23,593 nucleotides of DNA from a virus: IMG/VR virus record IMGVR_UViG_3300032163_000432, positions 1 to 23,593 of that record; one strand, given 5' to 3'. The notes below the pieces were generated by a model. The model made no database searches, was not told the origin of the DNA, and was given only the letters and a program-made list of their open reading frames with translations. Below, one piece after another: positions 6,352-22,198 of this stretch (positions within the stretch are counted from its first letter, which is position 1; every line of letters begins with the position of its first letter). Made by a program: the position numbers and the translations under genes.

Positions 6352-9303
6352 TCAATAAACTAGTTTAATTGCATCCATCATTGCAGCCCACCGAATATTA
6401 TCTCCCGCCGATCCTGTAACAAACAGATCTAGTGTTCCGGTGGTAGAATTAACTGCCAATCTGACACCCCATATTCCTGTAGATGAATTGATATCTGTTC
6501 CCCAAGTATCGGTTGAACCTATTTGATTCGTTGTACTTGCTCCGCCATTGCGCTCCACATATATGTGCCGTTTAAATCCCGCCCCAGTACCACCAGCCTT
6601 GCGAGCCATGATGTGAACAAGAGCTGAATATGCAGTGCTGTTGCCGATAGAGAATCTATTCGTAGAACTGCCATCAATAAAAATTTCTGTTTCAGTTGAA
6701 GTTGAAGTAAATCCATAGAATAGGTTGCGAACTGCCTGATTCAATCCTTTGGTTGTTGGGGAGATTGAACCCATGGCATGAGCAAATTCACCCAAATGGT
6801 CTGTCTGTGCATATCGCCCGACAGCTAAAGAATAGTTTGTGGCACAGTTATTTTGTACGCCAATCGCCGTCGCCCCTTGCAAATTGGCATTAATTACATT
6901 AAATGATCCCATCGTCGCACAATAACTTGTGCCAGTATTCTGAGTATTGTTAGCCCCTGTTGCAAATCCATCCGATCCTGCAACTACATTACTTTCACCC
7001 GCAGCGAATGAATATATTCCACTCGCAACTTGATTAGCCGCCGTTCTTATAGTTTGAAAATCAGAAGCCCCAACACCCCGTAAGTTTCCCCCAGTCAATG
7101 TGCCATCTGGAATTGTCCGCATAATCGCTTGATACGGATCGCCTAGTATTAGTCCAAACTGAGGGGTTGTTATTCCGCCTACCACATAAGTAGATTTATT
7201 TGGCAGTGTTACACGCTCAACACTAACATCATCCACATCAAAATTTGCTGATCCACTGGCGGATATATTCAGACCAGTCGTGGCATTGACAGACACATAA
7301 TACGTTCTTGTCCCGGAAGAAGTCGGCGCTTCGTTGCTGAAATTCTGTCCGCCCAGTCCCACCTGCAATCCACCGCTCACCCAATTTTTAACGGTCCATG
7401 AAACTCTATATTGACCACCAATAACAATAGGGGGATTCTGATTAAGTATACCAGCAGTTGAGGCGTGTGCTACTCCGCCGCTTGTACTAGTCCAATACCA
7501 CGCACTCGCCGTGGTTGACCATGTAGAAAGATCGGTATTGAATGTGCCGTTAGTTATAAGTTCACTACCAATAAATCCTCCCACCACTATCATGCCAGTA
7601 CTATCTATGACAATATTAGAGTCTTGAAGAAGCGTACCCGTTGAACCGTTCCACATAGCTATTGCTCTATCTGTGGCAGATGAGGGTCCAAAGACTGTCC
7701 CGGTAGATGTGGAAGCATATAAACCATCTGCCAAGGTGGAAATTAAGTTGTTTGTACTAGCACTGACTCGCGTGCCCAGAGTTGTACTTCGGCCGCTCGT
7801 TGAAGTACTGATGCCATTGTTCATGGCGGAGATAGTGGTAGATGCCGCCGTCATATCGGCGAATTGGATTGCCCGGAATGTCGGTGTTGCCGCTGTTCCC
7901 GTGGAGGGACCCCCAAAGAAAGTGGTGGAAATCTGAGTAATAAGTGTGCCCGTCAAAGTGCCGTTGGATGTGACAGGCGAACCAGTAGTTGACAGAATAG
8001 TGGACGGTAAATCCAACCCCACACTCGTCACCGTACCCACGCCTCCAGAGCCAGATTTAACCTCAAGTTCACCAGCAGAGTTAATCTGGATTGTGGCATT
8101 ATCCGGCACTACACCCAATCCCGTACTGCTGATAGCCAAACCACTGAGGGGAAGAATAGTAGTGCTGCCAATACTCAGACCAGTATATCGGTATCCTTGA
8201 TTGAGATTAGTGGTGGTTGTATTGGTATTCAACAATCCTTGGGTGGATATTCCCATAGCAGCAACGGCCTGCGTAACAGACCACGCCGAAGCAAAGTTGG
8301 CGGATATATCCGTTGAAATTCCGGTACTGATATAAAGTGGATTTTGTATATGGAGTTTAGTTCCATCTGGAGTATACGTGCCAGGAAAGTTATCAGTAAA
8401 GGCATTGATGCCATTTACCATAACGGCGAATTGTACCAGTGGACAAGTACTCGTCGCATTGCCACTAGTATCGCCAGTAAAGAATCCAGCGTAAGGATCA
8501 GATGTTACGGTATACGCTTTTGGACCCAAGATTGTAGAGCCATTGATTTGTACGAGTGTACTACCACCAGCAGTAGATAATGATAAAATATGGGTCGTAG
8601 ATGCTGGTGGCGATACAGAAGTAGATTGAAGTTGAGTGCTACCCTGATACAAACGGAAACTCAGATTGCCAACCCATATCGCATATACGACATTCGTACT
8701 ATTAGTGGAAGTTGTGGAACCTAACTGCAAACCCACCGCATACTGAGTAAATTGATGCCGATTGGTGCTGGTAATTGCGACGTGTGCGACCACGTTTGCA
8801 GCAGCGACAGTCTGAGTAGACAACTTAACTTCAAGGCCACTCGTGGCAATATCGAGTCCACCCGATGGATTCTCTACCGTAAAGATTTTAGTGCTCGTAC
8901 CGCCCGTGGATGTGCTGATTGATGCATCCCCAGAAAAGACGTAGAAGGTAGATGCTGGTGGGGTAGTGCCCAACAAACCACTAGATGTTATAGACAAAAC
9001 ATTGGTGGAACCGGGATCAAGTCGCAGGTTAATCCGCGTGCTGTTGAAATTGGTACTCGTCGAAATGGCATTGTCGGCAGAATACACGACTGGCAGTATT
9101 GTACTGATCGTGCTCGAAGGTGTAATAAAGATCGTACTGTTATCGACAAAGACGCCATATCCCGTCGAAGTATTGTAAAGAGCATTGGTAGATGAGGGGT
9201 TGAGTTTGATAAGTGGATTAGCTGTCGCTTGAGCTAATCGCTGCCAATTGCGGCGAACTCTATCTGCCGACCATGCGTTTCTATCTATGCGAGTACTGCT
9301 CAT
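6352..9303 (-). CDS. Modular tail fibre / receptor-binding protein, 983 aa
   Basis: ATG 9303 overlaps the stop of the small upstream gene in an ATGA, so translation is probably coupled; its own ribosome site is weak. Modules in order: a short N-terminal anchor (MSSTRIDRNAWSADRV), a long Ser/Thr-rich beta region (to about 420), the familiar fibre motif GTVTSVGLDLP near 423 with GSPVTSNGTLTGTL after it, and a carbohydrate-binding-module-like beta sandwich (about 575-695, beginning GSELITNGTFNTDLSTW and ending FDVDDVSVERV). Then come YadA-head-like left-handed beta-roll repeats (about 770-843, AIGVQNN, SLAVGRYA) and a C-terminal beta domain of the type found at the end of many phage fibres (GDNIRWAAMMDAIKLVY). 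About 58 Ser-Thr dipeptides occur. It probably binds the host surface glycan; the target is unknown. Confidence 0.88.
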   Translation of the reverse strand: MSSTRIDRNAWSADRVRRNWQRLAQATANPLIKLNPSSTNALYNTSTGYGVFVDNSTIFITPSSTISTILPVVYSADNAISTSTNFNSTRINLRLDPGSTNVLSITSSGLLGTTPPASTFYVFSGDASISTSTGGTSTKIFTVENPSGGLDIATSGLEVKLSTQTVAAANVVAHVAITSTNRHQFTQYAVGLQLGSTTSTNSTNVVYAIWVGNLSFRLYQGSTQLQSTSVSPPASTTHILSLSTAGGSTLVQINGSTILGPKAYTVTSDPYAGFFTGDTSGNATSTCPLVQFAVMVNGINAFTDNFPGTYTPDGTKLHIQNPLYISTGISTDISANFASAWSVTQAVAAMGISTQGLLNTNTTTTNLNQGYRYTGLSIGSTTILPLSGLAISSTGLGVVPDNATIQINSAGELEVKSGSGGVGTVTSVGLDLPSTILSTTGSPVTSNGTLTGTLITQISTTFFGGPSTGTAATPTFRAIQFADMTAASTTISAMNNGISTSTSGRSTTLGTRVSASTNNLISTLADGLYASTSTGTVFGPSSATDRAIAMWNGSTGTLLQDSNIVIDSTGMIVVGGFIGSELITNGTFNTDLSTWSTTASAWYWTSTSGGVAHASTAGILNQNPPIVIGGQYRVSWTVKNWVSGGLQVGLGGQNFSNEAPTSSGTRTYYVSVNATTGLNISASGSANFDVDDVSVERVTLPNKSTYVVGGITTPQFGLILGDPYQAIMRTIPDGTLTGGNLRGVGASDFQTIRTAANQVASGIYSFAAGESNVVAGSDGFATGANNTQNTGTSYCATMGSFNVINANLQGATAIGVQNNCATNYSLAVGRYAQTDHLGEFAHAMGSISPTTKGLNQAVRNLFYGFTSTSTETEIFIDGSSTNRFSIGNSTAYSALVHIMARKAGGTGAGFKRHIYVERNGGASTTNQIGSTDTWGTDINSSTGIWGVRLAVNSTTGTLDLFVTGSAGDNIRWAAMMDAIKLVY

Positions 9304-9470
9304 TGATTACTTTTCTTCTCAGAGAGATCAATTGCTTCTGCTAATCGGAGTGCATTATTCAATACCTTCTGCCAAAGTTTTATACCTTTATCTTTTTTCT
9401 TATCCCATTCTGTTCTATATTTTCTTTCAGCATTACGATAATTACTAAGTTCATGGTATGGAATTTTCAT
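9300..9470 (-). CDS. Small charged helical protein between nozzle and fibre genes, 56 aa
   Basis: This 56-codon frame fills an otherwise empty gap. Its ATG (9470) overlaps the TGA of the nozzle gene as ATGA, and its own TGA overlaps the fibre ATG in the same way. AGGGA lies at a suitable distance before the start. The product (MKIPYHELSNYRNAERK onward) is rich in Lys, Glu, Asn and aromatics, is predicted helical, and has no membrane segment or cysteines. The coding sequence is clearly more AT-rich than its neighbours, which suggests a separate origin. Coupling on both sides argues for a real product made in step with the fibre, perhaps a connector or chaperone, but I recognise no family. Confidence 0.72.
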   Translation of the reverse strand: MKIPYHELSNYRNAERKYRTEWDKKKDKGIKLWQKVLNNALRLAEAIDLSEKKSNQ

Positions 9471-10858
9471 CTGCGTTCCCTATTGCGGCCTGCTGGTTCA
9501 AATTCCAGCAAAGCAGACTCGAAAGAAAAGTAGGCATTATTAGTGCTGTTGTGAATTTTCACCGTAAACCATTCCCCCCGGAGCCGTTGTCGGGCAGTTT
9601 TTTGCCGCTGATCCATTGAATAGTTGATGAACGTGGAATTGCGTGGCGTGCCTTCTGTAACAGTAAAGGCATTCGGTCCACCGTATAAACTTAGATTTGC
9701 GTTCCAAGTACTAGATGCATCTCCAAGAAACAGATCGCCAAAATTGACAGTCGCGGCCGTAAGTATCGACTGCATCGGGATCGGATGAAGTGGGCCAAAA
9801 ACCAAATAAGACGATACAGTGCTACTATCGTCATCAAAAGCACCTTGATCCATAACCCGCAAATAACCATCCCAACCCCCTACGATAATAGCGCGACTAT
9901 TAGGATCATTTTGCCCCTCGAAAGCAACGGCAGATGTGGGACCAACTAATCTAGGATATCCCTGCGGCCAGAATCCCCCATAACGTGCGTCATAAACCAT
10001 ATGCGTACCCGTGGAGGTACTGGACGTAGGTGTTACAAAGACATATAGGTAATGTAGATCACTATCGTACACCAATTGAATACTCTGGTAGTTCCAACTC
10101 AGAGCATCAAAGAAGCGATTCATGGTAGAAGCGGATAAGTTTTTGGCTGGTTCTAATTTCTCCCATGCTGGCCGAAGACGATACAGTCCACCAGAACCTA
10201 CAAAATACAACGTACCGACAGGATCAATCGCCCATGCGCGTGGACCGATAATTCCAATGGAGTCCGAAATACGAACAATCGAACCTCCATCCGCTGGATC
10301 ACCCGATAACATCCACATGGAGTGGGCGCAACCAACTACAAGATAATCATCTGAATAAGGAATCAAAGCGATGATCGGTTCACCGATTTGACCCGCTATA
10401 GATAGATTACCCGCGAAAGCAGACGCGGGATCGGTCTGAGAATAATCCCAATCAGTAGGCGTACCCAACCGAGCACAATAGAAAAGATGCGGCGAATTGA
10501 TGTCTCCTGCCAGTATTAATCGACTACGCCAATTACATGCGAGATTACAGAATGTAGGATGTGTACCCGCTGTCGTGGAGTAAGTTTCCATCGCCAGCGT
10601 GGACGGATTAGCTTGAAAAATTGTGGAACTGCCGTCTACAATATAAACTTTTTGAAAAATCGTCGCCATACTAACCAGTCGAGTTGAACTAATTAGCGAT
10701 GTAGAAGGTGCGGGTTGATTTGTGGCGAGAATTGGATTAGCCCCTGTGGTGCAAAACCAAGTAGAACCCCCAACTACCGCAGTAAGATAACTACGATAAT
10801 TGGAGTTGATCGCTGGGATATTAAACGTACTCGTAGATGGATAAATTGGCAGACTCAT
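9467..10858 (-). CDS. Tail nozzle / hub protein, C-terminal beta-propeller part, 463 aa
   Basis: ATG 10858 overlaps the stop of the preceding gene (ATGA). The protein is all-beta with propeller-like blades. Family features include CNWRSRLILAGD near residue 110, GTPTDWDYSQTDP, GQIGEPIIALIPYSDDYLVVG, SDSIGIIGPRAWAIDPVGTL and FVGSGGLYRLRP, all typical of the central part of podovirus nozzle/hub proteins (the T7 gp12 or P22 gp10 position at the tail tip). Members I know of usually carry the GGVN-type N-terminal part in the same chain; here that part is a separate gene just upstream. Ser-Thr dipeptides are frequent (about 15). The likely role is to form the distal tail tube that holds DNA in and docks fibres. 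Confidence 0.8.
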   Translation of the reverse strand: MSLPIYPSTSTFNIPAINSNYRSYLTAVVGGSTWFCTTGANPILATNQPAPSTSLISSTRLVSMATIFQKVYIVDGSSTIFQANPSTLAMETYSTTAGTHPTFCNLACNWRSRLILAGDINSPHLFYCARLGTPTDWDYSQTDPASAFAGNLSIAGQIGEPIIALIPYSDDYLVVGCAHSMWMLSGDPADGGSIVRISDSIGIIGPRAWAIDPVGTLYFVGSGGLYRLRPAWEKLEPAKNLSASTMNRFFDALSWNYQSIQLVYDSDLHYLYVFVTPTSSTSTGTHMVYDARYGGFWPQGYPRLVGPTSAVAFEGQNDPNSRAIIVGGWDGYLRVMDQGAFDDDSSTVSSYLVFGPLHPIPMQSILTAATVNFGDLFLGDASSTWNANLSLYGGPNAFTVTEGTPRNSTFINYSMDQRQKTARQRLRGEWFTVKIHNSTNNAYFSFESALLEFEPAGRNRERR

Positions 10859-11781
10859 AAGAGTGTCACCACGTAAGGAGCGGCAGAGCCGGTACTATTA
10901 AGAAATACCGTCGCTGCAACTGTATAAGGGCTAGGAAATATTGCCGCCGTGCCAATGGTGGAAGTTGAAGTGCCCAAGAGAGTGCTATTGTTTCCTGATG
11001 TTTGGTGCATTGTCACGGTTACTGTGGTCCCAGTAGATGATGGACTCAGCGATACAGTATACTGAACTTGACACTGAGTAGAACTGCCATAAAATCCCGG
11101 CTGCCCATGTTCTGCTAATAGGGTAGTTCCCGTACCGCTGCTAGTGGTAATGATGAGTAGTGTCGATGAACCTGGCGAGATAAATCCTGTACCCGTACCA
11201 TCCCACTTAACTTTAATGGAATCGGTACTTCCGCCATATGTCAGCATTGCGTATGCTTCATTGACAGTGCCCGCTGTAGATGGTCCCGCCGTAACGGTCC
11301 ACGTATTGTTAGCTCCTCCACCACCAGTCCCGCCGCCCGTCCCCGGTACAATTGGACCGCCGGGACCCGAATTCGGTCGCGTGGCATTTGCCGCCGTACC
11401 ATCACTTAATCGCCCACCCGTTCCTGTGCCGGTACTCCATGGTATGCCTCCACTAGTCCACGTACTCACAATCCCCGCAAGTTTCGTTGATGGGATAGGA
11501 ATAACCGCGATAGGGGGGAGTTGACCATATCCATCAGTACTATTGTTAGTAGGATAAGTAATCACCAGAACCGGAAGCAAACCCTGCACAAATGTGGAAC
11601 CTAATGCCAGATTCCAAGCTTTCGTAATGCCAAATCTTTGGCCTACACGAGCGCGTCCATAAGAATCAAATGGGAGTACATTGAGAGCGTCCCAACATGT
11701 GTCTTCTGGTTGCCTTTCACGAGCGACAACCTTATTCACACCACCGAGAGGCATCGGAATCGGCAATACTTTTTGCGCCAT
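10855..11781 (-). CDS. Tail nozzle N-terminal part with Ig-like domain, 308 aa
   Basis: The opening segment (MAQKVLPIPMPLGGVNK, then QPEDTCWDALNVLPFDSYGRARVGQRFGITKAW) matches the usual beginning of podovirus nozzle proteins, where 'GG(V/L)N' and 'A-NV-P...GR-R-GQRPG' are hallmarks. A Ser/Thr/Gly-rich linker follows, with a GGGTGGGG run near residues 155-162, and then a beta domain (about 165-308) resembling an Ig-like or cadherin-like fold. The gene ends in an ATGA overlap with the propeller gene, so the two products probably assemble together. The start lacks a visible Shine-Dalgarno, and an in-frame TAA lies seven codons upstream, so ATG 11781 is the best start. About 14 Ser-Thr dipeptides occur. 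Confidence 0.75.
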   Translation of the reverse strand: MAQKVLPIPMPLGGVNKVVARERQPEDTCWDALNVLPFDSYGRARVGQRFGITKAWNLALGSTFVQGLLPVLVITYPTNNSTDGYGQLPPIAVIPIPSTKLAGIVSTWTSGGIPWSTGTGTGGRLSDGTAANATRPNSGPGGPIVPGTGGGTGGGGANNTWTVTAGPSTAGTVNEAYAMLTYGGSTDSIKVKWDGTGTGFISPGSSTLLIITTSSGTGTTLLAEHGQPGFYGSSTQCQVQYTVSLSPSSTGTTVTVTMHQTSGNNSTLLGTSTSTIGTAAIFPSPYTVAATVFLNSTGSAAPYVVTLL

Positions 11782-11823
11782 AAAATGTTGTGCGGACGGT
11801 TAGGCCCACACACCATGTAAAAG

Positions 11824-11857
11824 ATCAGTCGAAGTGAGTCAATTTGACCCGACTGAT
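11824..11857 (-). terminator. Inverted repeat with CTTTT tail after the 192-aa gene
   Basis: ATCAGTCG (11824-11831) and CGACTGAT (11850-11857) are perfect complements. Inside them lies a second small palindrome, GTCAATTTGAC (11838-11848). On the minus strand the stem starts five bases after the 192-aa stop codon and is followed at once by CTTTT. The AT-rich stem and short U run suggest a weak, leaky terminator or an RNA-processing hairpin ahead of the nozzle genes. Confidence 0.5.
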
Positions 11858-11862
11858 GTACT

Positions 11863-12441
11863 CTATCCACGAATAAGTTGCTGTTGTTTATTCACCGGTT
11901 CATAACCATACATATCATAAGACACAAGATCGGAGGCATATGTCAGATGCCCATGAATAACACCTGTAGAATTAGCAACCTGAGTAGCGGTGGAAACTGC
12001 AATCGTCGAAACGCGAAACGCCGTATCTCGTTTCATTCCATTATCGGAAAGATCGAGAGTAAACGTATAGAATTCACCCGCCGTATTCGGCAAAGTGAAA
12101 GTAGTAGATTGTGCCGCCGTCGAAACAGCGGTGCTATTACCCGGCACTAACACATCAATCAAATAACTGACAATCGTGAGATCGCCCGTGTACGCAGTTG
12201 ATCCCAACAAATGCAATTGCAAAGTATCGACCGCCTCATCATAATCACGAGGCAGGATGAAATAGTCAAAAGATGTACCGGAGGGAGTGATACCACCGGA
12301 GTTCAACTCGTCGATATAGTCGAGTTGCCTATCGTGGAGAAATCCACCATCAGCGGGTTTGGGACCAGTACCCGAAGTACGACCGCCGCCGGTGATTATC
12401 TGTTTAAGACCATAGAGAAAATTGTTGAGACTTAGTTTCAT
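11863..12441 (-). CDS. Unknown virion protein between adaptor and nozzle genes, 192 aa
   Basis: The frame opens further upstream at ATG 12528, but that would overlap the adaptor gene and span the hairpin at 12456-12480. ATG 12441 has a perfect GGAG five bases before it and gives MKLSLNNFLYGLKQI, so it is chosen. The protein begins with a short helix and a Gly-rich loop, then looks largely beta (strands such as TFTLPNTAGEFYTFTLDLSD). It has seven Ser-Thr dipeptides, like its neighbours. No signal or membrane segment is seen. The position suggests a head-completion, tail-tube or surface protein, but I recognise no family. Confidence 0.8.
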   Translation of the reverse strand: MKLSLNNFLYGLKQIITGGGRTSGTGPKPADGGFLHDRQLDYIDELNSGGITPSGTSFDYFILPRDYDEAVDTLQLHLLGSTAYTGDLTIVSYLIDVLVPGNSTAVSTAAQSTTFTLPNTAGEFYTFTLDLSDNGMKRDTAFRVSTIAVSTATQVANSTGVIHGHLTYASDLVSYDMYGYEPVNKQQQLIRG

Positions 12442-12455
12442 AAAAACTCCAAAAG

Positions 12456-12480
12456 GCTTGGCGACCTTTGGACACCAAGC
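12456..12480 (-). terminator. Intercistronic stem-loop before the 192-aa gene
   Basis: Read on the minus strand, two 11-base arms pair around an AAA loop (GCTTGGTGTCC/GGTCGCCAAGC) with one G-U pair and one U-U mismatch. CTTTT follows at once, then the GGAG ribosome site of the next gene. The stem lies five bases after the adaptor stop. It is consistent with a leaky Rho-independent terminator or a stabilising hairpin that sets expression of the downstream genes. Confidence 0.6.
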
Positions 12481-12485
12481 AAAAA

Positions 12486-13688
12486 TTAGGGATTGGTAAA
12501 CACCGGAACAGTCGGTCGTTGATACCAATGATCCCTGAAAGTTCTAATTGACGGCCACTTGCCGCCTCTGGCGGTTGGATTACCGAAGTAACCTATCGCC
12601 GGTGGAGCCGACGCCGCATCCACACGATAACTATTTGGCAGACAAATCTGCCGATAGTATTGCATATACGGCCCTTGTAACGTATCCTCTACCTCCATCT
12701 CAGCCACGGCAAGGCATGCAGATCGAATTGACTCATCGTGCCCAAAAGGCGCGGGAGTTAAATCATTGTATGTAGATAAATCCTGAAAGTGCAACGAATA
12801 GGGGAAGAGAATATGAAGAAACTCTGATGGAATTCTCCAAGTCATCATCTCCCATCGCCATCGAGGAAATGCCAACGCCGATGCCGAATTGCGTAGCGAT
12901 TGATAGTGCGGAGTTGGAATCAACCGCACTGCCGCTTCATAAGGCGTACCTGATTCGATATTGTAGTTTTGCCTACGCGACCGAATCGCCGCTTCACTTG
13001 TCCACCGCAAAATCATACCACGATTCGTATTCTGGATGTAAGTGATTTCACCAAGATACTGTCCCCCGAAATTGAGAGGCAAGGTGTAATCACCCAACTG
13101 CACAAATGAATACGTAATCGGTTGCGTTGAAGTAGACGCCAACGTAGAGGATAGTTGACCAAATACCTGAATTTGATCCGGTGCTAACCACGCCGTGATA
13201 ACATAAGGCAAACCCGATGTAGATGTAGATATTCCATTCCACCCTTGTGTGCCAGGCGGCGGATTACCACCCAACCAAATCTGTCGCAACTCCATCGAAG
13301 GATAAAATTGCGTCGAAAATGACGGGGCGGTCAAAGTCAACGTGGTTGTACTCGTTGTAGAACTATAACCAGTCGAAGTGACATAGACGGTTGATCCCGT
13401 CGCATCCACACTGATCTGCGGCCATAAGTCCACCTGCGCTATCGGTCGCAACCACTTCCATCCACTCGGTTTCGGACCATCATGGATGAACATGCGGATC
13501 GCCTTGTTGACTATTCGTTTACAAAGCGTTAAATCATGGTTATCAGTCGGTATGGATGGTGCGTCCGTGCCAGTACTTCCATACGACGCGATACCCAACT
13601 TGTAGGCCACGTCAATAATCAAATCCCGAAATGTGAGCACCGACGGCTCAAGAATCTGACCAACGGCCCCATCAACTTGCGAAGCCAT
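12486..13688 (-). CDS. Head-tail adaptor protein, 400 aa
   Basis: ATG 13688 is preceded by GAGGA seven bases upstream. The N-terminus (LTFRDLIIDVAYKLGIASYG, IPTDNHDLTLCKRIVNKAIRMF, then WKWLRP) matches the helical adaptor family placed between portal and nozzle in many podoviruses (T7 gp11 role). The middle is a Ser/Thr-rich beta insertion (about 95-205, 11 of 12 Ser-Thr pairs), followed by FYPSMELRQIW, YTLPLNFGGQYLGEITY and TNRGMILRWTSEAAIR, also typical of these adaptors. The C-terminal third is helical. The product should bind the portal ring and seat the nozzle. It is preceded and followed by stem-loops that isolate it from its neighbours. Confidence 0.85.
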   Translation of the reverse strand: MASQVDGAVGQILEPSVLTFRDLIIDVAYKLGIASYGSTGTDAPSIPTDNHDLTLCKRIVNKAIRMFIHDGPKPSGWKWLRPIAQVDLWPQISVDATGSTVYVTSTGYSSTTSTTTLTLTAPSFSTQFYPSMELRQIWLGGNPPPGTQGWNGISTSTSGLPYVITAWLAPDQIQVFGQLSSTLASTSTQPITYSFVQLGDYTLPLNFGGQYLGEITYIQNTNRGMILRWTSEAAIRSRRQNYNIESGTPYEAAVRLIPTPHYQSLRNSASALAFPRWRWEMMTWRIPSEFLHILFPYSLHFQDLSTYNDLTPAPFGHDESIRSACLAVAEMEVEDTLQGPYMQYYRQICLPNSYRVDAASAPPAIGYFGNPTARGGKWPSIRTFRDHWYQRPTVPVFTNP

Positions 13689-13703
13689 AGTGCTTCCTCA
13701 AAA

Positions 13704-13741
13704 GCCGGTTTAGTGGAGTATATATACCCCACTAAACCAGC
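13704..13741 (-). terminator. Strong stem-loop between decoration and adaptor genes
   Basis: Thirteen-base arms (13704-13716 and 13729-13741) pair with a single G-U, and the stem can extend by four more pairs into the central GTATATATAC, leaving a four-base loop. On the minus strand it starts eight bases after the decoration stop and runs into TTTT, then GAGGA and the adaptor ATG. This is the longest hairpin of the window and a good candidate for a partial terminator that lowers adaptor output relative to capsid proteins. Confidence 0.7.
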
Positions 13742-13749
13742 ATAGAGAC

Positions 13750-14577
13750 TTAGTACACCTTCGCCGCATTCTTAACCCAACCAACTAAAGCAACTGTGCC
13801 CGTACTATCGGCAGCTTGAACAGCGATAATTCCGCCGTAGTTACTGACAATATCGTAAGTCGGATCAACCTGCGATTTGGCAACCTGATCGCCATTGACA
13901 TAAAAGTATAAATACTTCTTGCCATCAAATCGTAGACCCAATTTCACAAACCCTTCATCCGTCAAATCGCCGGGAGGCGTAGGCGGAATAAAAAACGGAT
14001 TTGCTGGATTGGGATTATTCGACGGAGAATTCAATACATCGGCCAACACGACTGTGGGAGCCGCATCACCAGCCCTCTGATATATAGCATCCATTTGACC
14101 CGTGCTGTTGATGGTGCTACTTTCCAACCAGAATCCAATAAGACTGGCAGTAGAACCAACCGTGCTAATATCGGTGATAATTGTGGTACCCAAACCAGCC
14201 AATTCCGCAATACCGACAAACAAAGCCGGAGCAGTAGACACGGTTTTCAATGCCACAATAGTTTCAAACCAATATTCCTTGCCGGAGCCAGGCGTAATCG
14301 GACCTATCGGTCGAATCCACATCGCAGCCGTGCCGGTCGATCCGGTACTGATATCCATAACTGCGTTGTAATTCGGATCATAACCAAAACCACCACTTGC
14401 ATCCGCAGCAGCGGGCAAACCTGGTTCTGTGCCTGCAACTACCGCCCGAAAATCCTGTCCTTCTGCAAAGCCCGACCCCTCATCGAGCAATTGCACCCAT
14501 TGACTGTCGCCCCAGATCGAACCACTCGGCTGAGCAGCTTCGCTAGGACGGCTATAACCAATCATTCCATAAGCCAT
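13750..14577 (-). CDS. Putative capsid decoration / surface virion protein, 275 aa
   Basis: ATG 14577 has GAGG eight bases upstream. The protein is predicted mostly beta. Segments such as EYWFETIVALK, KLGLRFDGKKYLYFYVNGDQVAK and YGGIIAVQAAD resemble a concanavalin/LamG-type jelly roll in pattern, although I cannot name a family. Eight Ser-Thr dipeptides occur. A gene directly after the major capsid gene is often a decoration or head-fibre protein, and a lectin-like fold would suit an exposed virion protein. The role is inferred from position and fold impression; the gene itself is certain. Confidence 0.78.
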   Translation of the reverse strand: MAYGMIGYSRPSEAAQPSGSIWGDSQWVQLLDEGSGFAEGQDFRAVVAGTEPGLPAAADASGGFGYDPNYNAVMDISTGSTGTAAMWIRPIGPITPGSGKEYWFETIVALKTVSTAPALFVGIAELAGLGTTIITDISTVGSTASLIGFWLESSTINSTGQMDAIYQRAGDAAPTVVLADVLNSPSNNPNPANPFFIPPTPPGDLTDEGFVKLGLRFDGKKYLYFYVNGDQVAKSQVDPTYDIVSNYGGIIAVQAADSTGTVALVGWVKNAAKVY

Positions 14578-14632: not shown

Positions 14633-15745
14633 TTACGGGATCAGGTAATGAATAACGCCGCCGACTGTTCGCCGATTGATACACAAATTATTGTGTGATC
14701 CATCAAGGAATACAGTAAACGTCGTATGCTGGCCACGGTCCACCATAGGTTTGGACTCTTCCATCCAGTAACCCTCGTGAACGATAGGCTGCAATTTCGT
14801 CCAATCCACGCAATAAATCGGATTCGGGTGGAACGCATTACCATTAGAATCTGTCACCGTCATGCCATCGAGCTGCGGAATCCAGACGACAGGCATCTTA
14901 TTAAAGTAAGCTGTCCCGTCGAAATTGTGCAACATCTTTCCGGCCAAATCCTGCGGCGTGTTAGCATCATCCCGCTTATCGGACAAGTCCTCAAGTTCAG
15001 TCACAACATCATCGGCAGCATAAATCTCGAGCGGGCTGCCAACTTTGTCGTCACCAGGCTTCTGGACTATCGGAGCAGGACGGAAACGAGTGCGACGAAC
15101 CATGGAACGCAATTTACGGAGTAGAGTGTTGTCTACTCGCGTATACGTGTCAGCATAGTTGCGCCATTTCGGTTCGGCGGCCGCATCAATACCAGCACAA
15201 ATCGTACCCGTAGTGGCATCTGTGTATCGAATTGTCTGGCCAGCGAATCCGCCAGTACTAACCCCATTACCCAAGAAGTTGATGTAGTACGGAATTCCAT
15301 AAGGAAACAACGTATCAGTCGCAGACACCGGCGTCAACCAGCCGCGCTCTTCAATCAACTCCGCAATATCCCACATGCGTTCAACCCGCCGAGATTCCAG
15401 TAGGTCGATAAATCCCTTCTCACTATTCTTTTGACGCAGGAGTTCCAGTACATCCCAAGAATAGTTAGTGCCAAGTTGTGTCCAGGGCACATTAATAAGG
15501 AACTGAGATTGATCGACGGTAGGTTGATCTGTATCATACAACCGACGATATTTGGCCCGTCCATGCCGATCCAGAATCACGTTACGCTGGATCGAAGTAC
15601 CACCATCAATCTGCCGACGATGTTCTTGGTAGAGTTGGCAGATTTTATAATTCTGACTATCCCACATGACCTCGAATTGACCTTTCGGCAAATCGCGCAA
15701 CGTAGTTGCAATTAGATCAGCGAGTTGACTACTATTAACGCCAAT
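14633..15745 (-). CDS. Major capsid protein, 370 aa, apparently starting at ATT
   Basis: This is the major head protein of a podovirus-type family. Recognisable parts are the N-terminal SSQLADLIATTLRDL, the region VPWTQLGTNYSWD, the RRVERMWDIAELIEERGW helix, LFPYGIPYYI, WRNYADTYTRVD, and the C-terminal VDWTKLQPIVHEGYWM and HTTFTVFLDGSHNNLCINRR. The usual automatic start would be TTG 15700, but that cuts off the conserved first 15 residues and has no ribosome site. Upstream, before an in-frame TGA, there is no ATG, GTG or TTG. ATT 15745 lies seven bases after AAGAAGGG, so I take it as the start. The scaffold gene ends 51 bases upstream, and a perfect inverted repeat follows the stop. Function is secure; the ATT start is an inference. 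Confidence 0.88.
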   Translation of the reverse strand: MGVNSSQLADLIATTLRDLPKGQFEVMWDSQNYKICQLYQEHRRQIDGGTSIQRNVILDRHGRAKYRRLYDTDQPTVDQSQFLINVPWTQLGTNYSWDVLELLRQKNSEKGFIDLLESRRVERMWDIAELIEERGWLTPVSATDTLFPYGIPYYINFLGNGVSTGGFAGQTIRYTDATTGTICAGIDAAAEPKWRNYADTYTRVDNTLLRKLRSMVRRTRFRPAPIVQKPGDDKVGSPLEIYAADDVVTELEDLSDKRDDANTPQDLAGKMLHNFDGTAYFNKMPVVWIPQLDGMTVTDSNGNAFHPNPIYCVDWTKLQPIVHEGYWMEESKPMVDRGQHTTFTVFLDGSHNNLCINRRTVGGVIHYLIP

Positions 15746-15749
15746 ATAG

Positions 15750-15775
15750 ATACCCTTCTTTCACTTAGGAGGTAT
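15750..15775 (-). promoter_or_regulatory. Possible hairpin covering the capsid ribosome site
   Basis: The capsid Shine-Dalgarno AAGAAGGG occupies 15753-15760. On the mRNA its GGGUAU end can pair with AUACCU just upstream (15770-15775), forming six pairs around a 14-base loop. The upstream arm also contains ACCUCCU, a copy of the ribosome's own anti-Shine-Dalgarno. Either pairing could dampen initiation at the capsid start. This is a by-eye folding prediction only. Confidence 0.3.
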
Positions 15776-15796: not shown

Positions 15797-16885
15797 TCAT
15801 TTATTAAAGACTTCTCTGAGTTTAGCTTTGACTGAGGCTTCCAGTTCTGTCCTCGATCTGGACTCGCCAGGTTTACGCACAGGCTTGGCCTGCGCTCTAT
15901 TGCCCGGCTTCTGGATCATCCCTTGTTCCCGCTTCTTCAAAGACTTCTCAATACTCTCTCGTGCGACCTGTTCTTTCGCACTGCTGGTAACAGAATCAAA
16001 TGCAAGTTGCAGTGCTTCTTCTAAACCCAAATTACGCCCTTGCATTCGACTTCCCCCGATCAATGCGTCGGCATATTCGAGGATTTTTTGACGCGATTGA
16101 ATCTGTGAATCGGTAAGACTGGCGGAGTCTACACCATAAGAATCGGTATAGACTTTCATCTCTTTCCCACCGAAAAAGGAATCGACTTGTTTACCGAGTG
16201 TTTCCAACTGAATCATCTCGGCTCGCTTCTTCGCCTCTCGTGTGACCGGCAACATAGCATTCATTTCTTGGATTGCTCTATTGATCGGTCCAACTAGGGC
16301 ATCAATTAACGGTTCGTCTCCATATGTTTGTTTGAGTGTTGCAATATCGACTGGTTTGAGATCGCCGTCTGTCACTACTGTTTGAGTAGTAGTAACAGGT
16401 TGTTGAGTAGTTCCAGTTCTACGAGCCTCACGACCCGCAGCCGCCCAATGTTGTAATTCGCGCGTGCGAATCATGTGCATTTTGGCTGCTGATGTGAGAA
16501 AATCAGAACCGCCGGACTTTACCGCTCGATCAATCTCCTCATCTGTCCACTCATAATGCTTCAACGACCGCCTGTGAGCATCGGGAAGGATAAGCGAGCC
16601 ATTCTCATCGGTTGACTCAGTAGCTTCCTCTTTTTGCTCCGCTTTACTGTCCTCCGGTTCGTCAACTTTTTCCTCAGTTTCAGTTGACTCAGGTTTATCC
16701 TTCACGATCTTTGGTTCGCCTTGATCCTGAACATGTTTCGCTTCATCCAGTTCCGCATGTTCACTATCCGCAAACGCCGCCTGAAATTTATCAGAGATTT
16801 TTTCAGCTAATGCCGACTTCTCTGCATCATTCAACAGAGGAACAGTAACACCGCGATTCGCCGCACCCTGCGCAACTTCACTCAT
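15797..16885 (-). CDS. Scaffolding protein for capsid assembly, 362 aa
   Basis: ATG 16885 has GGGAG seven bases upstream. The protein is helical and highly charged. An acidic, Glu/Lys/Asp-rich disordered region spans about residues 43-95. A helical middle follows (EEIDRAVKSGG, near 250 KQVDSFFGGKEMKVY), and the basic C-terminus (about 305-362, KSLKKREQ, KPVRKPGESRSR, then a helix ending KAKLREVFNK) is what scaffolds use to hold the coat protein. Its place directly before the major capsid gene completes the case. It should be an internal assembly core that leaves the procapsid during packaging. No protease motif is visible. Confidence 0.85.
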   Translation of the reverse strand: MSEVAQGAANRGVTVPLLNDAEKSALAEKISDKFQAAFADSEHAELDEAKHVQDQGEPKIVKDKPESTETEEKVDEPEDSKAEQKEEATESTDENGSLILPDAHRRSLKHYEWTDEEIDRAVKSGGSDFLTSAAKMHMIRTRELQHWAAAGREARRTGTTQQPVTTTQTVVTDGDLKPVDIATLKQTYGDEPLIDALVGPINRAIQEMNAMLPVTREAKKRAEMIQLETLGKQVDSFFGGKEMKVYTDSYGVDSASLTDSQIQSRQKILEYADALIGGSRMQGRNLGLEEALQLAFDSVTSSAKEQVARESIEKSLKKREQGMIQKPGNRAQAKPVRKPGESRSRTELEASVKAKLREVFNK

Positions 16886-19538: not shown

Positions 19539-21467
19539 CTAATCCACCATTCTAAAATCGAAGTGTGTAGGATACTTACCGTCTCGCCGTTCTCTGAATC
19601 GTTTGACCTGTTGCCATTTGTTGAATCTTCCCCCAAAGGTTCGCATCGAATCCCCCTTTTGTTCTATTACTTTTGCCCTACATTTAGGTGCTCCCACCAG
19701 TAAAAGGGCATCAGCAATTACTCTATCCCCATGCGTCTTGCGTGCGGAATCAGATTCTTTTATAAGGTCTGCAGGACCAACTCCCCCACCGGGATAGTAT
19801 ACATACATTAGGCATTCATTAAGGGCCGCCTCACTATGATTGATAAAAGTACCATTCGCGTAGGCTCGACGCAAAATACCAAGAGCGATTGCTTTTTTCT
19901 CTGAACTAGATCGCCATCCGTATCGCTTTCCCACTTTTTCTCTAGTTGTTCCTACCTGTTTATCAAAGTAGATATCGGGATACTTGTAAACATTGACCAA
20001 TTGGCGACCGAAGTCAAACCCTGGATCGCCATTATTTTCCCATATGACGAATGGACGCCGCGTACCTCCGCACCATATGGTTGCGGCAACAACTGACTTA
20101 GCGAGTTCGTATGGAGGCGTATTAGCATCAGCATATTCCGCAATCTTCTCTCTCGTTTCATTACATAGAATTGAGATAACGCTATTCGACGCTCCCTGCC
20201 CCTTACTGATATCTATCGCCAAGGTATAGGTTTTAGTTTGATCTGGTCGTTTGTCGATCAACTCAGTCCATATCCGCCACGGCCCATCAATTGTGCGGCA
20301 AATTACTTTATCCGTTTGTCGTTGAATTCCTGCCCGCACTACATCCTCGTCCGTCATCCCCTTCTTGAATTTGATTGATGCCCGATATTTGGGTACACGA
20401 GCAAATAGTTTTTTATGTTGTTCGATTATAATATTCTCAAAGAATGTTTCACCTGATCCCACATGGTCCATATCCACTTCGATGGCCAACTCTTTAGGAG
20501 ATCGTTCAAGAATTTGTTGCGTATACCACGGGGATATAATCTTCCAGCGTCCCAAAGCATCTTGCCACGTTGTTCGATCCGCACCTTTTTCCGGGTGTTC
20601 CCACCACGGTAAAACAAACACCTTAATACTGCCAGACATGCGCCACTTGCTGAATACTGTACCGGGTCCATTAGGCGTGGAACACGGTAATATGCAAGCT
20701 GATACATCCTTAATACTTCGTTTAATCGACTCGGCTTCGTCAACCTTGGCAAATTCATCGAGGAATACAGATTTACGACGATCAGATGATCCCGCCGTCG
20801 CATTGCTGGATTCACCATCTATACGGCTTCCATTATCCCCGTTCCGTAAGTGCATCTTTTTACGCGAGAAATTAGGAATCATCCATTCTGGTAGATGAGC
20901 CAGAATATAATCGACCTTACCAAAAAGTGTACCAGGATCAGATTGTGAACCAAAGGGATAGTCCTTCGCCGGACCATCCAGTAAATCAACAGCATCTTCT
21001 TTACGGCTGATAATCAGATGTGCTTCACTACTTTTAAATAAAAGACGATGGGCTAACACCACCAGGTGGTCCCAAGTTGCCCCCATATCACGACTCTTAT
21101 CTGTGAGTAAGGATTCGCCGACATTGATTGCTCTTTCAATGGCGAGTAGATGATCGTCTTGAATTGGCCATGTTACGTAGGGAATATGCGTATCTTCAGC
21201 CTGAATTGTCTGCCCATTTTTGACTTGAAATACGCGAAGTGTCCACGCTGCGAAATTTACAAAAAAGAGTAAAGATTTGGCGCAAGCGGTATAGAGAACA
21301 TCCCTCAAAGGGAGATCAACTTCTGCTTCCCGCAGAAGTTTAGCCCGCCATTGCAGGTTTTTACTCGGATTCTTCGGAACCGTCAACCCTATTATCGGGT
21401 CCGTCCACAGACTTCGCTGTTTCGGGAATTCCTTTTCCAGTTGTGGTTCCTGTGCCCACAGATTCAA
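19539..21467 (-). CDS. terL: Terminase large subunit (DNA packaging motor), 642 aa
   Basis: All motor and nuclease motifs are visible. The Walker A-like P-loop is KSRDMGATW (residues 124-132), Walker B is VFLDEFA (234-240) and the coupling motif is STPNG (263-267). The RNase H-like nuclease has acidic residues in LAIDIS (Asp419), VIWENNG (Glu477) and HGDRVIADALL (Asp581). The protein pumps DNA into the prohead and cuts the concatemer. The start is uncertain: TTG 21467 overlaps the upstream gene by 107 bases and has GGGAG close by. The conserved region starts only at about residue 36 (KNLQWRAKLLREAE), and a later TTG at 21383 (28th codon) is possible. No ATG exists in that part. The gene is complete at the 3' end. 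Confidence 0.93.
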   Translation of the reverse strand: MNLWAQEPQLEKEFPKQRSLWTDPIIGLTVPKNPSKNLQWRAKLLREAEVDLPLRDVLYTACAKSLLFFVNFAAWTLRVFQVKNGQTIQAEDTHIPYVTWPIQDDHLLAIERAINVGESLLTDKSRDMGATWDHLVVLAHRLLFKSSEAHLIISRKEDAVDLLDGPAKDYPFGSQSDPGTLFGKVDYILAHLPEWMIPNFSRKKMHLRNGDNGSRIDGESSNATAGSSDRRKSVFLDEFAKVDEAESIKRSIKDVSACILPCSTPNGPGTVFSKWRMSGSIKVFVLPWWEHPEKGADRTTWQDALGRWKIISPWYTQQILERSPKELAIEVDMDHVGSGETFFENIIIEQHKKLFARVPKYRASIKFKKGMTDEDVVRAGIQRQTDKVICRTIDGPWRIWTELIDKRPDQTKTYTLAIDISKGQGASNSVISILCNETREKIAEYADANTPPYELAKSVVAATIWCGGTRRPFVIWENNGDPGFDFGRQLVNVYKYPDIYFDKQVGTTREKVGKRYGWRSSSEKKAIALGILRRAYANGTFINHSEAALNECLMYVYYPGGGVGPADLIKESDSARKTHGDRVIADALLLVGAPKCRAKVIEQKGDSMRTFGGRFNKWQQVKRFRERRDGKYPTHFDFRMVD

Positions 21468-21801
21468 TTTCTCCCATCCCTTGTGCGATTCGATTTAACC
21501 GTTCTTTCGCCAATTCCTCAATCTTCTCTATGATCTTGACCTTTTTCTCCGTCTCTGGTGCTACTTGTATAGCTTTTCCCTCTACTCGCTCCCATATGAA
21601 TTGTTGTGCCCACGATGCTGGAGGTCTGTTTTCCGCACCCAGTGCCGCCTCCCAAATCATTTTCGCCAGAACTTGAGCACGAGTAATAGGTTTGCCGTTA
21701 TCGTCAACATCTATCGCTTCCAATGCCAATTCTTTCAAGTGCTTTGTCAGCGACTTGGAATCAGGTAGATGGATTACAGATTTTTTATGGCTGGAAGCCA
21801 A
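21361..21801 (-). CDS. Putative terminase small subunit, 146 aa
   Basis: Directly upstream of terL and overlapping it. The frame begins right after an in-frame stop, so TTG 21801 is its first usable start; GAAAG lies five bases before it. Helices such as LTKHLKELALEAI and ITRAQVLAKMIWEAALG, then FIWERVEGKAIQ followed by a charged coiled coil (KKVKIIEKIEELAKERLNR), are what I associate with small proteins next to terL in many phages. The C-terminal 45 residues are Gly/Thr/Glu-rich and probably disordered. It should recognise the packaging site and recruit TerL. Assignment rests on position and general sequence character, so a non-terminase DNA-binding accessory remains possible. Confidence 0.65.
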   Translation of the reverse strand: MASSHKKSVIHLPDSKSLTKHLKELALEAIDVDDNGKPITRAQVLAKMIWEAALGAENRPPASWAQQFIWERVEGKAIQVAPETEKKVKIIEKIEELAKERLNRIAQGMGEIESVGTGTTTGKGIPETAKSVDGPDNRVDGSEESE

Positions 21802-22198
21802 TTAAACTTTCTTTCCAGTTGGGACGTACACCTTGTGTACCAGCAGTGATAATGCGACCCGTGCCATCAATCCGCACATTAGCGGTAGACGTATCAATTA
21901 CCGCCAGAGGAGTGATACCAGGTGGTACAGCCAATCCTTCACCATCCGTGTGATATTCACTAACATCCATATCGAAACTCAACAGACTTGTACTGGAAGC
22001 GACCGTACTACCAGCCGTTATGATATCAACTATCCCAGCATCCACATTACAAATTATATCGTCAATCAGCAATCGTTCATAGGGTTCCAAAACCCGCACG
22101 TTGGCATCTGCATCAAAGAATACTAATTGAGGATTAGTAGACGTACTGGATGCAACCAATGCTATACGTACTGTTTCGCCCTGTAAAATTGAAGCCAT
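21785..22198 (-). CDS. Unknown Ser/Thr-rich probable virion protein, 137 aa
   Basis: ATG 22198 overlaps the stop of the 32-aa peptide (TAATG), with AAGAAGG upstream. The protein is beta-rich with five Ser-Thr pairs (SSTST at 17-21, SSTS near 68) and a segment EGLAVPPGITPLAVIDTS. It has no signal peptide, cysteine pattern or membrane segment. The Ser-Thr signature links it to the decoration, adaptor, nozzle and fibre proteins of this phage, so I infer a virion surface component such as a head fibre or a tail decoration. I recognise no family. It ends inside the start of the terS-like gene (17-base overlap). Confidence 0.75.
   Translation of the reverse strand: MASILQGETVRIALVASSTSTNPQLVFFDADANVRVLEPYERLLIDDIICNVDAGIVDIITAGSTVASSTSLLSFDMDVSEYHTDGEGLAVPPGITPLAVIDTSTANVRIDGTGRIITAGTQGVRPNWKESLIGFQP

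Follow-up and report, generated by a model that had tools for sequence, protein, structure and literature searches.

Near-cognate start codons are known from infC (AUU or AUC) and sigR (GUC), both of which are controlled through IF3 (PMC5472188). They are rarely acquired; among closely related prokaryotes, one of 61,358 ancestral AUG starts became AUU (PMC5622118). We describe here a viral major capsid gene that probably starts at ATT, together with genes of other phages that resemble it. As in these phage genes, the near-cognate start of infC occupies a conserved position in a bacterial-type gene (PMC5472188), but infC is an autoregulated housekeeping gene, whereas the phage cases are virion structural genes of unrelated phages that share a leader and have no known link to IF3. 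Streptomyces sigR (GTC) likewise has a conserved non-canonical start that was missed by gene callers (PMC5472188); it differs in its codon, in encoding a sigma factor that is kept low by IF3, and in having no shared leader class. Extended Shine–Dalgarno initiation resembles the leader in being purine-rich and in its potential to pair with a CUUUC-type 16S tail. However, the GGGTA and NYTAT parts of the leader are not Shine–Dalgarno complement, and the leader accompanies near-cognate starts. Finally, the HK97-fold major capsid proteins of PHROG 9953 share both fold and head-module position with the protein studied here, and they start with ATG where our gene has ATT.

The capsid locus and its reading frame

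The whole stretch of DNA that we analyzed, 23,593 nucleotides of an IMG/VR virus record, is referred to as the window. Its features around the capsid start are as follows.

14633..15745, minus strand: major capsid protein gene, 370 aa, predicted HK97 fold (PHROG 9953 in relatives and structure model)
15743..15745, minus strand: ATT, putative start codon of the major capsid gene, in the alignment column where 130 of 136 distinct homologues have ATG
15751..15762, minus strand: leader motif GAAAGAAGGGTA, 5 nt (TCTAT) before ATT, fitting GAAAG-N(1-2)-AGGGTA-N5
15753..15760, minus strand: Shine–Dalgarno-like AAGAAGGG within the leader, with a 7-nt spacer to ATT
15761..15763, minus strand: in-frame TGA stop upstream of the ATT start, read from the sequence
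15797..16885, minus strand: upstream gene, scaffold-like by position, ending 51 nt before ATT
13750..14577, minus strand: downstream gene with an ordinary ATG start in the sequence, a within-genome control

Judged by homology and structure prediction, the product of 14633–15745 is an HK97-fold major capsid protein with a predicted role in the shell, in line with the earlier note, which had called the gene major capsid from the sequence alone. The window protein by itself matched no PHROG or Pfam family above threshold; PHROG 9953 ("major head protein") was matched by 38 of 67 relatives (best 1.3e-11). Structure prediction from 16 sequences gave a low-quality model (pLDDT 47.7), which was discarded. 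The model from 67 sequences (pLDDT 81.6, pTM 0.78) retrieved phage capsids from the PDB with Foldseek (best E 6.5e-10), HK97 itself included, and it also matched capsid proteins in a comparison with viral models. No family match was found for the upstream gene (15797..16885).

On the minus strand the capsid frame reads TGA(15763) AAG AAG GGT ATC TAT ATT(15745) GGC GTT AAT AGT AGT CAA CTC GCT GAT CTA ATT GCA ACT ACG TTG(15700). Re-reading the sequence confirmed two statements of the earlier note, namely, that no ATG, GTG or TTG lies between the in-frame TGA 15763 and TTG 15700, and that AAGAAGGG stands exactly 7 nt before ATT 15745, coordinates and spacing both being correct. The same AAGAAGGG precedes the ATG of gene 21785–22198 with a 6-nt spacer. 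The remaining near-cognate codon here, ATC 15751, is separated from this Shine–Dalgarno-like sequence by just a single nucleotide. Without its Met, a protein started at ATT would have the N-terminal peptide GVNSSQLADLIATTLR.

Elsewhere in the window, TTG appears to be the start of the large terminase gene and of the one preceding it (19539–21467 and 21361–21801), so non-ATG starts in the window are not confined to the capsid gene. We also noted that Ser–Thr dipeptides occur, with varied codons, at about three times expectation in 6352–9303 (58 vs. 18) and in the neighbouring tail-module genes (9467–14577).

Start codons across the capsid family

IMG/VR contains more than 200 relatives of the window capsid protein; wherever the start is covered, the codon in the column of ATT 15745 is almost always ATG. 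Removal of near-identical copies left 136 distinct capsid genes, window included: 130 start with ATG, one with GTG (L230), three with ATC (L096, L097, and L100), one with ACG (L095), and one, the window, with ATT. The earlier note had placed the capsid start at ATT 15745 and had described the residues upstream of TTG 15700 as conserved. Both claims hold at the level of sequence, with the ATGs of 130 of the 136 genes falling exactly on the ATT codon, and with the window protein aligning end to end with 15 ATG-started relatives so that ATT lies under their M. Given an ATG at this column in 130 of 136 genes, and the same leader in the three ATC genes and the ACG gene, the sequence comparison excludes chance as an explanation of the ATT at this position.

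The capsid tree places the window among 12 ATG genes in a single clade (support 0.999), gives the ATC clade the ATG gene L122 as its sister (support 0.86), and puts the ACG gene on a separate branch. The branching pattern indicates that ATG was lost independently at least twice, and probably three times, in this family, which makes sequencing error very unlikely. The ATC genes come from three metagenomes and have diverged mainly synonymously; L096 and L100, for example, differ at 50 synonymous and 12 non-synonymous codons (five and zero in codons 2–22), so the gene appears to have stayed functional with ATC. The ACG contig L095 has an identical partner (L126) from another metagenome. Between the window and L036, codons 2–15 show seven synonymous and three non-synonymous differences, and differences from close relatives generally are mostly synonymous. 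An exact search returned no near-identical contig, and only one contig of the window's own virus came to light; a phage-isolate collection contained no capsid homologue.

The capsid gene is single-copy per genome, and a second capsid copy was rejected, none being found. Neighbouring morphogenesis genes of the near-cognate genomes have ATG starts, except for a GTG-started terminase in one ATC contig, and most other conserved structural genes of these genomes also begin with ATG. The gene directly downstream from the capsid keeps its start in 125 of 125 relatives.

Three oddities emerged from the same alignments. The GTG-started capsid relative (L230, position 601; also L300) has its start behind a very strong Shine–Dalgarno sequence, AAGGAGGT. 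In L022 (2995–3010; same contig in L197 and L263), the capsid gene is without its first 24 residues, and the remainder is attached to an ATG in a different frame, apparently through a deletion or a misassembly. In L175 and L177, the post-capsid gene has an ATG, followed soon after by an apparent frameshift or stop interruption.

A leader before apparent near-cognate starts

The motif GAAAG-N(1-2)-AGGGTA-N5 stands directly before the start in each of the five near-cognate capsid genes and is absent from all 130 ATG relatives. With the start codon it reads GAAAGAAGGGTA TCTAT ATT in the window, GAAAGTAGGGTA AACCC ATC in the ATC genes, and GAAAGGTAGGGTA CTTAT ACG in the ACG gene, and among all loci fetched by capsid homology it was found at near-cognate starts only. 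Within the family, distant lineages match at 11 of 12 positions in the same register in 0.12% of pairs, in itself a suggestive figure; the argument that the leader similarity is not a chance one comes from the two scans described below. When the 136 genes were ranked by pairing with the 16S rRNA 3' end, the leader genes fell at 44–125 with the E. coli tail and at 10–31 (top quarter) with a CUUUCU-type tail. Average pairing with the one and top-quarter pairing with the other suggest that pairing strength alone does not explain the association between leader and near-cognate start. Rfam returned no known RNA element. A conserved mini-hairpin over the start (GUA-NNNA-UAY) was dropped, most of it being forced by the pattern of the second scan described below and the ATC clade being without it.

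Because the near-cognate capsid genes were themselves used to define the leader class, only matches outside the capsid family are independent tests. We scanned viral contigs with two patterns. The first, GAAAGN{1,2}AGGGTAN5AYNGGNRT, returned 28 loci, with the known capsid genes among them; it also recovered an unrelated DNA-ejection gene, after ACG in three contigs (L330, L331, and L332) and after ATT in one (L311). The second, GAAAGN{1,2}AGGGTANNNATAYK, was the source of most non-capsid cases; AT was fixed before the start, and ATG and ACT served as controls. A frame was counted as gene-like if it was opened by the codon after the leader with no usual start upstream.

Among the matches listed, over all loci, gene-like frames followed the leader in 14 of 21 cases with ACG, nine of 39 with ATT, four of four with ATC, 15 of 38 with ATG, and none of 14 with ACT. 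Within these matches the excess of ACG over ACT was clear (p = 6e-5), and ATT alone was only marginally above ACT (9/39 vs. 0/14, p = 0.09). The ratio of near-cognate to ATG starts among the matches listed was 26:15 with the leader, in contrast to 4:111 with canonical Shine–Dalgarno controls in the same loci (p = 4e-15); the near-cognate counts include L309 (ATC), which has an ATG two codons on, and the doubtful L415. The leader thus also precedes 15 ATG genes among these matches. At the level of sequence, the family comparison and the scans demonstrate that the arrangement recurs in related capsids and in unrelated phages and that near-cognate starts are statistically linked to the leader.

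The genes served include at least four major tail proteins (L394, L357, L414, and L450), a second capsid lineage (L348), a portal-like protein (L408), and a 1657-aa protein (L409). In L336 and L358, no usual start follows until 46 and 49 codons, respectively, into the gene. When the ACG-started tail tube L357 is aligned with the annotated major tail protein of Streptomyces phage Chymera, which starts with ATG, residue 8 of the one corresponds to codon 8 of the other, and the ACG coincides with that ATG. In the ATT gene L433, residue 2 corresponds to position 2 of the PHROG that it matches. Two further regularities were counted among the matches listed, at positions left free in the search, since positions fixed by the pattern say nothing of conservation: position −4 is a pyrimidine in 21 of 22 near-cognate leader genes versus eight of 15 ATG genes (p = 0.004), and the second residue is G, A, S or P in 21 of 22 near-cognate leader genes versus 53% in ATG genes. 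Such a second residue fits removal of an initiating Met, which supports the near-cognate codons as starts.

No leader followed by ACG was found in 399 Pseudomonadota genomes, where about one would be expected by chance, a result that says no more than that the combination is not common there. Short-DNA searches of isolates with the leader gave chance matches only, the best being intergenic with no long open frame. Our search of the open-access literature turned up no description of such a leader-linked near-cognate class for phages, and nothing relevant on phage genes with ATT or ACG starts.

Competing readings and a possible mechanism

We consider it likely that ATT 15745 is the functional start of a single-copy capsid gene and one case of a recurrent phage class, in which GAAAG-N(1-2)-AGGGTA-NYTAT is followed by a near-cognate start (ACG, ATT or ATC). 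That the true codon is ATG, misread through an assembly or sequencing error, is highly improbable. The virus is represented by one contig and a single base change would suffice, but three capsid genes of different metagenomes have ATC and two contigs have ACG, every near-cognate capsid gene has a leader that is absent from its ATG relatives, and no other gene in the window is broken; the assembly error that the earlier note had considered is countered by this recurrence in independent contigs. We give equally little credence to translation from TTG 15700 with the conserved codons upstream left untranslated. Although TTG is a usual start, apparently used by the window's terminase genes, there is no Shine–Dalgarno sequence before 15700, the protein would lose 15 family-conserved residues whose codons change mainly synonymously, and in the ACG relative L095 the next ATG, GTG or TTG comes only at codon 19. 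Slightly less probable still is that ribosomes begin in another frame or in the gene upstream and reach the capsid frame by frameshifting, bypassing or reading through a stop. In favour of this, the window has its scaffold-like and capsid genes in one frame, with a GTG mini-ORF overlapping the leader; against it, the frame relation and the upstream starts vary between near-cognate lineages, whereas the leader-to-start distance is fixed and the upstream ORFs are not. Moreover, six window genes end in TGA as an ordinary stop, which means that the stops upstream of the capsid start are not recoded, and a scaffold–capsid fusion through a recoded TGA was rejected on the same grounds. An intron in the start codon was also rejected, the 51 nt between the scaffold-like and capsid genes leaving no room for it.

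The most probable of the alternatives, although we hold it unlikely, is a weak start that deliberately limits or times capsid synthesis in an IF3-sensitive manner. Near-cognate starts are generally weak, and the AUU/AUC of infC and the GUC of sigR are regulated through IF3 (PMC5472188). However, the leader class serves genes of the most abundant virion proteins, a specific leader goes with the near-cognate starts, and seven records contained no phage-encoded IF3. The suggestion in the earlier note that ATT limits or times capsid translation is unsupported, since the same leader with ACG, ATT or ATC precedes other genes for abundant virion proteins in unrelated phages. The presence of capsid and tail tube in the leader class argues against a simple brake on expression, and the pairing of leader and near-cognate start before such genes suggests effective initiation rather than down-regulation.

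Under the preferred reading, ATT as a functional start within a leader-linked class, fMet-tRNA would tolerate one mismatch in pairing with the near-cognate codon, aided by the leader, whose GAAAG and AGGG would form an extended duplex with the 16S rRNA 3' end. A U at −1 could give a fourth pair with initiator tRNA, according to an established model; in these genes it could pair with the base 3' of the anticodon and so help initiation. The fMet would then be removed, as the second residue, almost always G, A, S or P, leads us to expect. Initiation would be efficient, to judge by the genes served, which include capsid, tail tube, and DNA-ejection proteins. More tentatively, and with somewhat less than even confidence, we propose that GAAAG-N(1-2)-AGGGTA-NYTAT may be a dedicated phage signal that efficiently recruits ribosomes to near-cognate starts (ACG, ATT, ATC) of abundant virion genes, perhaps with the help of an altered initiator tRNA or of a factor from phage or host, and that gene callers have overlooked.

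A phage-encoded initiator tRNA was rejected as a candidate; the window has none, and the tRNA-like ARAGORN hits in relatives showed no initiator features by eye. ARAGORN reported one odd tRNA-like structure in each of four related genomes (L143, 19676–19751; L147, 15128–15199; L149, 13295–13367; L155, 6681–6752); among them is a tRNA-Ile, anticodon AAT, from a genome with an ATC start.

About three independent start switches in one capsid family, though near-cognate starts are very rare, and a shared leader that is also found in other phages point to a mode of initiating the synthesis of abundant phage proteins that has not been described before. Should the leader act as we propose, it would add a new rule to how ribosomes choose their start sites, and gene callers confined to ATG, GTG and TTG would be shortening or overlooking important virion genes. 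How a weak start codon is made strong would then become testable.
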